64,000 bases of DNA. Source: Rhodocollybia butyracea. Taxonomy: Eukaryota > Basidiomycota > Agaricomycetes > Agaricales > Omphalotaceae. A program made the translations under genes and the position numbers. This document shows, piece by piece, positions 1 to 52,262 of this stretch (position 1 is the stretch's first letter; every line of letters begins with the position of its first letter). The DNA lies in the NCBI GenBank assembly GCA_015501585.1, contig JADNRY010000164.1, positions 1 through 64,000 on the forward strand, given 5' to 3'. The notes under the pieces are model-generated. The model saw only the letters and a program-made list of their open reading frames with translations. It had not been told where the DNA came from and searched no databases.

Positions 1-41
1 TAATAAATGACGAACACATGCTAATATGTCAATTCATATAG

Positions 42-131
42 CCTAACCCTAACCCCTAACCCTAACTGGGCCTTACGGCCCGGTAACCCTAACCTAACCC
101 TAACCGGCACTACGTGCCGAACCCTAACCGG
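42..131 (+). repeat. Telomeric CCCTAA tract with two embedded palindromes
   Basis: Degenerate CCCTAA/CCCCTAA units are interrupted by two perfect hairpin-forming inserts: GGGCC-TTAC-GGCCC and CGGCAC-TAC-GTGCCG. The same arrangement occurs in the second repeat copy, so the palindromes belong to the element and are not random errors. The C-rich strand reads inward, as expected at a left chromosome end. Confidence 0.85.
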
Positions 132-546
132 TAAGTTAGGCCCGTAGTTGTGGGCGTCTCTTCTTCGGCCTGTCGGCTAGTGACCCGTAGACGCCTGGGG
201 CGCTAAACAGGTAGCGCGCTTAAGGTAACGTAAGATTTTGATCGACAGCTGTCCCCGGCGGATCTCGGCGTTTTGTGCTAACCCACGAGATGTCAAGTGG
301 CTTTGATGCTAAGTCCGTCTTCTCGGGCTTCGGTCTTACTATTTAGGATTACGAGTTAGCCAATGCGACCGTACATCGGAACGACGCTCACTAAGCGTCT
401 AATGTATAAGGAGTATTGTTATCCCCTGGCAGCGTGGGACTGACCAATGGCACTAACAACGCTCGAACATGTGTTCCAAGATACAGGCAAAGTTCGTCAA
501 GTACCAGAAGTACTATCGACGAGCAGTGTAAGTCTGTGACGATGTG

Positions 547-620
547 AAACAGCCCTGATGAGCTATAAAAGCGAAACAGGATTTGGTGTAAGAAAGTATC
601 TTACACCCTGTTGGCTGTTT
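547..620 (+). ncRNA. Hammerhead ribozyme, type I, copy 1
   Basis: All conserved hammerhead parts are present in order. Stem I 5' strand is 547-554 and the CUGAUGA core is 555-561. Stem II is a 3-bp GCU/AGC stem closed by AUAAA (562-572). GAA follows at 573-575. Stem III pairs 576-579 with 608-611, then a five-base bulge, then an 8-bp extension 585-592/600-607 closed by a seven-base loop. U612 is position 17, and the stem I 3' strand is 613-620, giving eight pairs. Predicted self-cleavage is between 612 and 613. Stem I is the open helix, so this is type I, the type reported in Penelope-like elements. Such elements usually have a short stem III, so the long one here is atypical. Activity is inferred, not shown. 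Confidence 0.92.
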
Positions 621-705
621 TTCGCTCTTACCCAACAAACTAACGAACTTGGCCCTTCCAAAAACGCCTCGTTCGCTTCGCTCACTTGTCGTTTTTGTCA
701 GGACC

Positions 706-718
706 ACCCCTAACCCCC
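706..718 (+). repeat. Short telomeric tract at the RT truncation point
   Basis: About two CCCCTAA-like units lie directly between repeat copy 1 and the first readable codons of the truncated reverse transcriptase. A telomeric junction exactly at a 5' truncation is what chromosome-end attachment followed by telomere capping would leave. Confidence 0.7.
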
Positions 719-1681
719 TTTATATTACGGTAGATACATCGACGATTGTCTTGCCCTAATTTATGCCTCAACTGCAGCCGAGGCACTAGATATTTGTAGT
801 AAGACAATACAATTCGATGGCTGTGTAATAGAATGGGAATGTCGTAATAATTACGGTACGTTCTTGGATATGACCATATATATCGACGACAATGGTGCAA
901 TTCAACATCTTCCGTTTCGGAAAGCGAAATCCCATCAAGAAAGAATACCTTGGGCAGTGCTCATCCACTCGATGTTCGACGTGGAACTTTCATAGGAGAA
1001 ATGTCCCGTTTAGCCACACTTAGTAGCACTCAGTCACACTACTTAGACGCCATATCAGGCCTGGCGGCCTTGTATGTAAAGCGTGGTTATCCTACCCAAG
1101 CAGTTTATTCTTGGCTGAATAAATACAAAAAAGAACGGTGGGAGAAACGACTCTCAACCAAAGACAAACAGGACACGGAAGATACCGTTCTTGTTCTTAA
1201 GTCCGAGTTTAACACTGCATGGGATTATTTCAATGCGAAAGAACTTGGGAAACGTATTACGGATTATTGGAATTCGTGGTGGACACACGCGGAAACTGGC
1301 TCGTATACGGGCCTTTATCCGGCGTATAAACACGCAGCATCAGACTTAGTTGATCGCTCGGGCGACTTCGAAACTTTAATTGTGGAGAGGGACGACCTAG
1401 GCACTGCTTTGAAGGATGTAACTGTGCCGGATATACGCAAAACCAATTTTACCAAAGCTCGTTGGTTAGTCTCTCGGAAACGTACGACTAACCTTTTCGA
1501 CCTTGCTAGTTCTTGGAAGAAAATTGTAATACAAACCCTGGACGAAGATGCTGTAAAAGAAATCTCCCAGGCACCATCTATTGACATGGATGCGGATATG
1601 TCGGACCAAGATGCTGGTCCTTCCCGCAATGTTGGTGGCGCCGTACCTGGAGACCTTGACTTCGTCTATCACACTGTGTGA
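719..1681 (+). pseudogene. 5'-truncated, endonuclease-less Penelope-like reverse transcriptase (Coprina/Athena type)
   Basis: The remaining part starts in the RT palm, with catalytic YIDD encoded at 735-746 inside GRYIDDCLAL. The next palm block, NNYGTFLDMTIYID, follows at about 846-890, and the thumb-region signature GTFIGEMSRLATLSS lies in the later frame, followed by a RGYP motif. The frame changes once near 950-958, consistent with loss of one base, and the reading frame then stays open to the stop at 1681. The C-terminal tail after the thumb is acidic and shows no GIY-YIG endonuclease, which is the hallmark of telomere-associated Penelope-like elements. Everything upstream of the palm C motif is missing. 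The reading direction, 5' end toward the telomere, fits priming from a chromosome-end G-overhang. Family membership is inferred from motifs. Confidence 0.82.
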
Positions 1682-2072
1682 TTTAAATTAGATCTGACTG
1701 CGATCGTACGGAGGTGAACGTGAAACGCCGCCGAAAGACCGCACCCTACGGACGTGTTCTTAATTGATCACGATTGTATGCCCCCCTCTTCCTAGTAGGC
1801 GTTTCGCCGAACGGTCGTAATGACGGCGGACTTAGTAAACCAGCGTAAAACCTGACGAACAGTTCAATGTTGTGACAGGGGGTGTGCATCGCGCGAGGTG
1901 TAAAACCCTCCCTGTCCTTGTAGGAAGTAGCTTGTAACCAAAACCAGCGACGTGTACGCCGGATCTTAAATTAATTACTTATTGAAAGTTCTTTTGAACA
2001 CACTATCTTGTAAGTACTACGATAACTGCGTCTCCCGCAGACGGTATTAACCGAGGTCTTTTAGGGAAGTTG
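1682..2072 (+). other. 3' untranslated region of the Penelope-like element
   Basis: No ORF of note. The segment lies between the RT stop codon and the next telomeric tract and occurs once in the window. It contains inverted patches but no second hammerhead core that I can find. Confidence 0.5.
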
Positions 2073-2100
2073 AACCCTAACTCTAACCCCTAACCCCTAA
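2073..2100 (+). repeat. Interstitial telomeric tract
   Basis: Four imperfect CCCTAA/CCCCTAA units mark the boundary between the 3' end of the truncated retroelement and the next, more internal element copy. Confidence 0.8.
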
Positions 2101-2117
2101 ACGTACGTACTGTCATC

Positions 2118-2832
2118 TAATAAATGACGAACACATGCTAATATGTCAATTCATATAGCCTAACCCCTAACCCCTAACCCTAACTGGGCCTTACGGCCCG
2201 GTAACCCTAACCTAACCCTAACCGGCACTACGTGCCGAACCCTAACCGGTAAGCTAGGCCCGTAGTTTGGGCGTCTCTTCTCTCGGCCTGTCGGCTAGTG
2301 ACCCGTAGACGCCTGGGGCGCTAAACAGGTAGCGCGCTTAAGGTAACGTAAGATTTTGATCGACAGCTGTCCCCGGCGGATCTCGGCGTTTTGTGCTAAC
2401 CCCACGAGATGTCAAGTAGCTTTGATGCTAAGTCCGTCTTCTCGGGCTTCGGTCTTACTATTTAGGATTACGAGTTAGCCGATGCGACCGTACATCGGAC
2501 GACGCTCACTAAGCGTCTAATGTATAAGGAGTATTGTTATCCCCTGGCAGCGTGGGACTGACCAATGGCACTAACAACGCTCGAACATGTGTTCCAAGAT
2601 ACAGGCAAAGTTCGTCAAGTACCAGAAGTACTATCGACGAGCAGTGTAAGTCTGTGACGATGTGAAACAGCCCTGATGAGCTATAAAAGCGAAACAGGAT
2701 TTGGTGTAAGAAAGTATCTTACACCCTGTTGGCTGTTTTCGCTCTTACCCAACAAACTAACGAACTTGGCCCTTCCAAAAACGCCTCGTTCGCTTCGCTC
2801 ACTCGTCGTTTTTGTCAGGACCAACCCTAACC
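2118..2832 (+). repeat. Subtelomeric repeat copy 2 (pLTR-like, carries hammerhead ribozyme)
   Basis: This is the internal copy of the block at 1-716, with the same order: AT-rich head, CCCTAA with two palindromes (about 2160-2248), unique core, hammerhead, hairpin-prone tail. It differs by a handful of substitutions and one-base indels, for example one T fewer after the ribozyme. Its inner end runs into CCCTAA repeats and then unlike chromosomal sequence, so it marks the junction between element array and chromosome. Confidence 0.85.
2665..2738 (+). ncRNA. Hammerhead ribozyme, type I, copy 2
   Basis: Identical in core and stems to copy 1: CUGAUGA at 2673-2679, a 3-bp stem II, GAA, an extended stem III with an 8-bp upper helix, U at position 17 (2730), and stem I closed by the strand from 2731. 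Predicted cleavage between 2730 and 2731 lies 2118 bases downstream of the copy 1 site. Cutting at both would release one RNA carrying the whole retroelement remnant. Confidence 0.92.
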
Positions 2833-2850
2833 CCTAACCCCCTAACCCCA
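2822..2850 (+). repeat. Innermost telomeric tract (old chromosome end)
   Basis: Four CCCTAA/CCCCCTAA units. Inward of this point no telomeric repeat continues, so this is the likely original chromosome terminus onto which the elements were added. Confidence 0.75.
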
Positions 2851-4117
2851 TATAGCAACTGCAGCGGTGAGAGGATAAATTTACAGGATCGACGATAAGC
2901 ATGGCTGAGAATTCCAGGAGACGTCTGCTTGTCTCTGTTGACAAAGAAATATAAAAGAGCCAACACGGCCGCAGCGCTCGCGGGCCTATGATTCAATGCG
3001 TTGTCTAGTCTGTGAAGGCGGGGCATAAACAAGTCAATTCGAGTTCCTTCACCCAAGCAAAGAAAACTCATTTTTGACCAAATGCAAAAATCCGCTTCTG
3101 GTGCTCGTGGTGCACAAAATCTCGAGTTCTCCCTCCCAATCCCCCACTACCGAGTTTTGCCCCAGCAGGACTAAGCGAGCGCGATGTTCGCCCCATGCGA
3201 GGAACGTGGGTGCGATCGGAGGCGGGAGAGCGTACCATACACGACCTGTAAGCCAACAAAGAAAGACAGGGTTGTTAATGAAGCGTGTTCAAAATAAATA
3301 AAAAAAGAACTGAAAAAAGCCGTCGAACACAGAATATATTATAGCAGATAAAATGGGAAGAAACTCACCAAGTAACTCAACATTGTGTGATTTCGTTCAA
3401 CCTCCAGCTCATCTTCCAATGCATTCGGCGACCGCATTGTATAGTCTTGGTGAAAAGGTAGGCGGGGTAGGTGATGCCGAGGATTGTGCTGGAGAGTTGG
3501 TCAGCGGTGTTGATACTACAAACCAACACCATTATCGTTTCCAGTGTCAAAAGACTCCTCAAGGTCCGGTTTCGTAAACGGGGCGTAGTATCTATAGTGA
3601 GACTCATCCGGTAGGAAGGCCAGAAGGATATGACGGATCGTTATCCATCTCCGTATCGTCTACTCCAGTTCCCTCTGCGGAATACGTCAATACTGGATTC
3701 GGATTTTTCGAGTCGGGTTTTTTGGTGGTCGGGAATCCTGAAGGCCCTGAAGCTTGAAGGAAGTTTGAAGCAGAGGGTTAAAAGATATATTTCGTCCCTT
3801 TGCCAGAGTACATTTGCCTGAGAGAAGTAGACAAGTCTTTCGTCTACCTTGTTAGCTTGCATTTGAGCTCAATATAAAAGTACACTCACGGTAATTACTG
3901 CTCATTAGTACTAATTTTGGCGTAACTGAATCTCTACACTTCATGAATTGCACAAGAGCACTTGGATAATCTTGGATTGAGAAATGGTCATAGCGGTTAA
4001 AAAGAAAAAAGTAATATCAAGAAGCGCCCGGAGATTCCTGGGCCGGGCTTTTTGCAGTGAGATTTTGTAACAGTACGGATCAATCCCCGCCGGACCTACT
4101 TAAGACTCGATTGTACA
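2851..4117. other. Gene-poor stretch
   Basis: Only short overlapping ORFs on both strands (under 95 codons). None resembles a known family or has convincing splice-linked extensions. I see no gene here. Confidence 0.5.
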
Positions 4118-4227
4118 TAGATAGAGATTAGTTTACTCTGAATCCAGCGCTATCCCTGTCGTTCCGAGTACCTAGATAGAGATTAGTTTACTCTGAATCC
4201 AGCGCTATCCCTGTCGTTCCGAGTACC
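4118..4227. repeat. Exact 55-bp tandem duplication
   Basis: The unit beginning TAGATAGAGATTAG occurs at 4118-4172 and again at 4173-4227 with no difference that I can see. It is non-coding and just upstream of the DUF6534 gene, so it may lie in that gene's promoter region. Perfect identity suggests a recent event. Confidence 0.9.
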
Positions 4228-4429
4228 TAAGTATACACTACTTACGCAACGTTACAACGTCTACCTAGCTTTCTGAACTGGCGAATTTGGAGACGTGAGT
4301 ATTTTAGTCGTTTTTGAACGCAGTTTGAGCGCTGATGCTCTCAACAGTGAGCAACTTCAATATCTGGGCCACCGGAATAGTGGTGGGTTATTTTACCCGA
4401 TATGAGGATTTATTGCGTGGAGCTAATGT

Positions 4430-51844: not shown

Positions 51845-52262
51845 GGCCTAATCCCATTGCGCAAAAGCCTACCCTAAAGAAAGGGATTCAAAAAACCAAT
51901 GACACAATGATGTCATTGCACTCTTATCTGGTTTCATTTGAATACAAAAGCCTAATCCCACTGCGCAAAAGCCTACCCTAAAGACAGGGATTTGAAAAAC
52001 AACAGTGTGATGATGTCATATATCTATTTTTACCGGGGCAATCCCATTGCGCAAAAGCCTACCCTAAAGACAGGGATTTGAAAAACCAATGATGCAATGA
52101 TGTCATTGCACTCTTATCTAGTTTCATTTGAATACAAAAGCCGAATCCCACTGCGCAAAAGCCTACCCTAAAGACAGGGATTTGAAAAACAACAGTGTGA
52201 TGATGTCATATATCTACATTTACCGGGGCAATCCCATTGCGCAAAAGCCTACCCTAAAGAAG
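51845..52262. repeat. 190-bp higher-order tandem repeat (104 + 86 bp)
   Basis: The block GCGCAAAAGCCTACCCTAAAG begins at 51859, 51963, 52049, 52153 and 52239. The spacings are 104, 86, 104 and 86, so two related half-units alternate to make a 190-bp dimer repeated twice plus one block. Confidence 0.9.

Follow-up and report, generated by a model that had tools for sequence, protein, structure and literature searches.

The 64-kb window, which is the whole stretch of 64,000 nucleotides analysed here, from contig C455 of Rhodocollybia butyracea, opens with a head-to-tail pair of copies of one probably Penelope-like retrotransposon, each carrying a type I hammerhead motif. We consider it likely, with a probability of roughly 85%, that these are copies of an endonuclease-less Penelope-like element (PLE) that spreads by chromosome-end priming, that the ribozyme is kept for the fold of the RNA 3' end and/or for trimming, and that the inserted RNA is uncleaved at its own 3' ribozyme. 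The observations behind this reading are the anatomy of the element, the distribution of its copies, their 3' anchoring and junctions, the lack of copies ending at the cleavage site and the covariation of the ribozyme stems between two element families.

The two motifs lie on the forward strand at positions 547-620 (distal, or outer, copy) and 2665-2738 (inner copy), 2118 bases apart, and both were identified by sequence reading together with a motif descriptor. In the distal motif, stem I consists of AAACAGCC (547-554) paired with GGCUGUUU (613-620), giving 8 bp with an open end. The core is formed by CUGAUGA (555-561), GAAA (573-576) and UU, with U612 as H17, and the 3-bp stem II pairs GCU (562-564) with AGC (570-572). 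Stem III starts with 4 bp between ACAG (576-579) and CUGU (608-611) and, after a 5-nt bulge, continues as a capped 9-bp helix of GGUGUAAGA (585-593) and UCUUACACC (599-607), in agreement with the unusually long stem III described previously for this DNA. The inner motif is the same sequence shifted by +2118. The original prediction had placed cleavage at 612/613 and 2730/2731, 2118 nt apart, and our reading of the sequence agrees with both sites. It had also stated that both repeats carry a complete hammerhead with identical core and stems, which proved correct, as the direct repeats 381-621 and 2499-2739 are 100% identical across the 241 nt around the motif and the descriptor matches both. 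With a CUGANGA / GAAA / UH core, three stems and an opening at stem I, the pair look like genuine type I hammerheads, for which self-cleavage is predicted from the sequence.

With minimum stems of 4, 3 and 4 bp for stems I, II and III, respectively, the descriptor matched exactly these two motifs and none besides on both strands of the window, and gave 0 matches on 100 first-order Markov sequences of 64 kb. A looser descriptor returned the same two motifs in the window, against 1 match per 40 shuffles (0.025 per 64 kb), while the core words alone are unremarkable (11 matches in the window vs 7.0 expected). Rfam at gathering score found two tRNAs and no hammerhead in the whole window, and Hammerhead_1 (RF00163) had no match at E<=1 in positions 1-3500. 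The search of this genome with a hammerhead covariance model that accompanied the original prediction as a check came out negative, with no Hammerhead_1 match at E<=10 (73 of 15107 candidates scored) at a threshold that gives matches in 11 of 14 control genomes. Energy modelling gives -28.1 kcal/mol for a rival fold in which CCUG pairs with CAGG vs -24.7 kcal/mol for the bare hammerhead, and the best fold that keeps every hammerhead pair, with extra pairs among core bases, reaches -27.9 kcal/mol. The lead of the rival fold is 0.2-3.4 kcal/mol, varying with the strictness of the hammerhead definition, folds holding all hammerhead pairs make up about 7% of the predicted ensemble, and the rival fold is still preferred over the hammerhead in a 211-nt context.

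Contig C455 begins within the distal copy, without a terminal telomere array. All features of the two copies are on the forward strand. The 3' part of the distal copy occupies positions 1-717 (98.5% identity to 2118-2834), and its 3' tail, with an imperfect inverted repeat AAAAACG...CGTTTTT, lies at 613-706; the tail pattern occurs at 14 places in the genome, all adjoining a hammerhead. A short telomeric junction, CCCCTAACCCCC (707-718), separates the distal copy from the 5'-truncated inner copy. The latter begins with the end of a reverse transcriptase (RT) at 719-1681, from YYGRYIDD onwards, which is continuous with the RT ORF on contig C983 and open in two frames (714-995 and 851-1681). It continues with a 3' UTR (1682-2060) that is found at 7 places in the genome, every one in a hammerhead-carrying copy, and with an internal telomeric-repeat module containing two GC-rich hairpins (2061-2240), for which telomeric runs exist at the same place in six other long copies. 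The fold of this module is no better than that of shuffles (z -1.46). The module sits about 600 nt before the 3' end of the long copies, and no copy starts at it among the 7 long enough to tell. Sequence comparison places the inner copy's 3' region, the "715-bp repeat", at 2118-2834, and a terminal telomeric tract (2825-2849) forms the join between element and non-element DNA. On C201 and C983, the long copies have the order RT ORF, 3' UTR, inner telomeric module, "715-bp repeat" with hammerhead, tail and terminal CCCTAA tract, and their RT ORF ends where the RT remnant of the window ends. On C983, the RT ORF of the same element runs directly into telomeric repeats at the contig end. For C455, we infer a chromosome-end position. 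Elsewhere, the window contains a near-perfect 55-bp tandem duplication (4113-4229) and 2.2 tandem copies of a 190-bp repeat (51850-52261).

RT motifs recognised by eye mark the element as a probable PLE, in line with the original prediction. Pfam gave only a weak RVT_1 match to the RT ORF (E 0.011), with RVT_1 found in 6 of 18 sequences across the ORF and 17 relatives, and the best NCBIfam match, Drt3a (1.3e-4), was far under its cut-off. At least 511 proteins matched the RT at E<=0.001 among 8000 scored candidates sharing most words, and the named relatives among the matches listed were from Lentinula edodes (60% identity), Armillaria ostoyae (50%) and Psilocybe cubensis (44%), which points to a basidiomycete host. 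No GIY-YIG endonuclease family of Pfam was found in the C983 ORF, which is 5'-truncated, and no endonuclease family was detected in the ORF and its 17 relatives at E<=0.01. No relative came from phages or from viral contigs, the latter searched at the protein level, with a DNA pattern and by alignment, and a search of solved structures by sequence gave nothing convincing.

A search of the genome (95.6 Mb, 1381 contigs) with window positions 540-640 as the query placed the motif at 20 sites on 16 contigs, 12 of which have a single motif. With a pattern confined to sequence upstream of the cleavage site, 19 of the same 20 places were recovered at up to 3 mismatches, the 20th having an inserted A. 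In the stretches read, all 20 motifs are near the 3' end of one retroelement family. Copy counts drop away from the 3' end, from 20 for the hammerhead to 16 for the mid-repeat (including three partial matches), 7 for the 3' UTR and 1 for the whole 5' end, with the 16 and the 7 all falling within the 20. The whole 5' end is seen in the C201 copy only, part of which is matched by C1083, and the outer C455, outer C1326 and C457 copies are cut by the contig end, making their 5' ends uninformative. Initiation at the inner telomeric module was tried as an explanation and rejected, since the hammerhead is present in each of the 7 copies that have the 3' UTR, although the shorter copies cannot tell. 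Loss of core bases in other genomic copies had been named beforehand as grounds for rejecting the original prediction; the core is kept in 18 of 20 copies and lost in two, C1083 having G-to-A at the first base of GAAA and the outer C470 copy having an extra A. For both altered copies, the nearest contig end is over 20 kb away.

A telomeric tract (CCCTAA repeats, 7-36 nt) is present at the 3' junction in 17 of 20 copies, in line with the association with telomeric repeats in the original prediction; no such tract was recognised by pattern in C423, C573 and C1083. Counted from the cleavage site, the tract starts at 93-97 nt in 14 copies and at 38-46 nt in 3 (overall range 38-97 nt). As judged by eye, it is followed by another element copy in 3 of the 17 (outer C455, C1326 and C201) and by other DNA in 14, and the flanking DNA differs between copies except in C423 and C573, which have a common flank. 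A G stands immediately behind the tract (CCCTAAG + flank) in 8 of the 17 tract-bearing 3' junctions and also at the 5' junction on C983, a pattern that would arise if TTAGGG were added to ends with a terminal C. The long inverted-repeat tail is missing from a subfamily that comprises the inner C201 copy, both C470 copies, C423, C573 and C1083; the tract was recognised in 3 of these 6, starting 38-46 nt past the cleavage site. The long 3' tail occurs at 14 places with the ribozyme directly upstream in 14/14, and the cleavage site is the 3' end of 0/20 copies. As no copy ends at the cleavage site, the inserted cDNAs came from RNA that was uncut at the 3' ribozyme.

In order to relate the copies to contig ends, one position per contig was used, so that 16 of the 20 copies entered the statistics; contig ends were taken as ends, with telomeric sequence seen at the C983 end only. 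The 5' end of the element points toward the nearer contig end on 14 of 16 contigs (binomial p 0.004), the exceptions being C201 and C470, and the distance to the nearer end is at most 10 kb for 10 of 16 copies vs 3.2 expected (P 7e-5), with C80, C478, C25, C809, C470 and C1083 lying further away. Proximity to contig ends is weak evidence by itself because repeats also break assemblies, but the orientation bias is unexplained by such breakage. The wrong-way arrays on C201 (first 10 kb) and C470 (106-116 kb) may be misjoined scaffolds or internal telomeric arrays. The element shows the features of a telomeric endonuclease-less PLE, namely a 3' join to reverse-complement telomeric repeats, a 5' end toward the telomere and 5' truncation. 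Together, the 3' anchoring, the junctions and the orientation are what priming by the chromosome end predicts.

Across the 20 copies, which are of unequal length, 5 of 74 motif sites are variable, compared with 84 of 453 sites elsewhere in the repeat (Fisher p 0.011); conservation equals or exceeds that of the motif in 17 of 453 windows, and a stretch just upstream (2605-2655) has variability as low as that of the motif. Covariation within the family is weak, with one compensatory pair, a level that 53 of 500 shuffles reach. The genome also contains a second, dispersed PLE-like RT family, with 27% identity over 199 residues to the RT of the first and with a different type I hammerhead close to its 3' end. 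In its C503 copy, which is broken by stops, the core words follow the RT at a distance of 287 nt. A pattern of the core and three stem II pairs yielded 9 second-family loci, in which the core and part of stem II are thus present by construction; these loci include L034 (1501-1524, on C491), L035 (on C503), L036 and L038-L041. RT-like sequence lies upstream of the motif in 4 of the 9, and a full type I hammerhead forms in 6, with a stem I of 5 bp and a stem III of 4-5 bp. The type I descriptor fails at L033, L035 and L037, L035 being the C503 locus where the second-family motif was first noticed. Independent loci number fewer than 9, as L039 and L040 are near-identical (99.7% over the stretch compared) and L033 and L034 are partial duplicates. 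Rfam placed sub-threshold type III matches in 7 of 9 loci, a reading that we rejected as the type I reading forms in 6.

Between the first and the second family, 8 of 12 compared stem pairs, in stems chosen by eye, are changed on both sides and all are still paired, one as G-U, so that covariation of the type I fold is found between the two RT families. By eye, a CGCTCT stretch behind stem I is also similar in both. In most comparisons within the second family, pairwise similarity extends about 55 nt beyond the cleavage site; it stops sooner for L041 and for some distant pairs, and runs further in duplicate pairs. The distance to a contig end is at most 10 kb for 2 of the 9 loci, and telomeric runs are absent from 8 of the 9 stretches, L041 having some about 1.1 kb upstream of its motif. 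As the second family is mostly dispersed and without telomeric runs, it is the elements, not the telomere, that the hammerhead accompanies.

In the mechanism that we propose, the RNA 3' end would consist of the hammerhead fold, the 38-97 nt tail and the CCCUAA repeats, the last of which would anneal to a chromosome's G-rich overhang. The element RT would then extend the chromosome end by reverse-transcribing the RNA from the 3' terminus, with early stops in most rounds and hence 5' truncation, and telomerase or a further element copy would cap the extended end. Repeated rounds would build tandem copies with their 5' ends toward the telomere, and paired ribozymes would come to stand at arbitrary spacing as a result of these successive end additions. 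The ribozyme would be retained for the 3'-end fold and/or for trimming upstream read-through RNA, which would free the 5' end of the next copy, and the RNA that is inserted would be the one uncleaved at its own 3' ribozyme. Transcription, annealing to the overhang, in vivo cleavage and 5' trimming are the steps that we infer here.

The original prediction had read the ribozyme pair differently, as the borders of a self-excising unit in which a 2118-nt RNA (613-2730) is cut from a telomeric transcript for processing; such an RNA might also be circularised. Both cores are intact on one strand and a read-through transcript could be cut twice, much as retrozymes use paired hammerheads (PMC6155905). 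The other copies in the genome do not bear this out: paired motifs are 2118 (C455), 625 (C1326), 4674 (C201) and 1359 nt (C470) apart, the last pair also having other DNA in between, most contigs (12/16) have one motif, none of the 20 insertions ends at a cleavage site, and the terminal CCCUAA tract would be lost from the cut RNA. Because four contigs show four spacings, 2118 is one truncation length and not a unit, and the spacing of paired motifs is set by the extent of the inner copy's 5' truncation. Ribozyme-bounded RNA left no visible footprint as an insertion template, and we regard its excision as a defined unit as very improbable. We rejected a conserved 2118-nt unit on the variable spacing, and a retrozyme on the encoded RT and the four different spacings.

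Other readings concern what the ribozyme does in an element that inserts from uncleaved RNA. It might mainly make 5' ends, with the ribozyme of the upstream copy trimming read-through RNA in arrays, the next RNA beginning in the tail and its own 3' ribozyme left uncut or cut late. This would account for the retention of a cleavable motif although insertion needs the motif uncut, and on C201 the near full-length copy does lie directly after the distal hammerhead and tail, where a trimmed RNA would begin 152 nt before the presumed start codon; as the whole 5' end exists in one genomic copy only, and all 14 long tails retain the upstream ribozyme so that no insertion starts at a cleavage site, we think it rather less likely than not that this is the main function. 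That the hammerhead is a structural signal alone, to which the RT binds or which makes the telomeric tail accessible, with vestigial self-cleavage, appears somewhat unlikely to us. The use of uncleaved RNA for insertion and the conservation reaching slightly upstream of the motif (2605-2655) would suit such a signal, as would a proposal that the fold exposes telomeric repeats (PMC6431247) and the report that, for an Anolis PLE in vitro, insertion was unaffected by hammerhead mutations, with unprocessed RNA as the dominant substrate (PMC11167929). Set against these are the catalytic core kept in 18 of 20 copies and the presence of the core in the second family with different stems, the core there being partly by construction. 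One could also model a two-state switch, in which the hammerhead fold would cut read-through RNA to form the next copy's 5' end while the rival CCUG/CAGG fold or RT binding would keep the 3' motif uncut and spare the CCCUAA tail for docking, with the same placement near the 3' end common to the dispersed PLE-like family; we think such a switch distinctly unlikely. Within our preferred reading of chromosome-end priming by an uncleaved RNA, the role that we favour for cleavage is the trimming of read-through RNA, which would generate the 5' end of the next copy.

Elements of this kind are already known. Coprina-type PLEs, reportedly described by Gladyshev and Arkhipova in 2007 from basidiomycete hosts, are said to lack an endonuclease and to be telomere-associated, and they would resemble the element here in these three respects. 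Cervera and De la Pena reportedly described PLE hammerheads in 2014, with fungal and protist variants said to be stable as monomers. The motif here resembles PLE hammerheads in being type I and in lying in a repeated non-coding part, and it has, like the fungal variants, a genuine stem III. Animal PLE motifs usually have no stem III, unlike this motif, and the long stem III here (4 + 9 bp) contrasts with PLE and Terminon motifs termed minimal (PMC7761336). Like plant and animal retrozymes, the element has hammerheads within direct repeats; retrozymes are non-autonomous and spread as ribozyme-bounded circular RNAs (PMC6155905, PMC7761336), whereas here an RT is encoded and the spacing is variable.

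The closest published arrangement is that of the bdelloid Athena elements and Terminons, in which a ribozyme fold lies beside reverse-complement telomeric repeats at chromosome ends, and the element and telomere arrangement here fits it (PMC6431247). The original prediction had called a ribozyme-bounded unit with telomeric repeats at a chromosome end distinctive; the association is seen, but with the bdelloid case described in that source its distinctiveness does not stand. Athena/Terminons share with our element an RT without endonuclease, a 3' hammerhead followed by reverse-complement telomeric repeats, 5' truncation by short telomeric stretches and head-to-tail arrays at chromosome ends (PMC6431247, PMC12477314, PMC7761336). 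Compared with them, our element differs in its length of about 4.6 kb (from one near full-length copy, on C201), in that no giant accessory ORFs were seen, in its TTAGGG-type repeats and in the 38-97 nt tail between cleavage site and telomeric tract. A link between PLEs and telomeres is also stated for Agaricus bisporus (PMC7473861). No description of a fungal telomeric hammerhead was found in the titles and abstract openings searched, a scope outside which key 2014 and 2017 papers fall, and we claim no priority; the present contribution is one clear case, with insertion footprints and a comparison of two families. The role of the hammerhead in PLEs is termed a mystery in a review (PMC7761336), and this genome offers a test bed, with a telomere-associated and a dispersed family whose hammerheads each have their own stem III. 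In both families, inserted copies run past the cleavage site (38-97 nt to the tract in the first, mostly about 55 nt in the second), which points to templates uncleaved at the 3' ribozyme, consistent with the in vitro work on an Anolis PLE, in which the ribozyme cleaved only once protein was added (PMC11167929).
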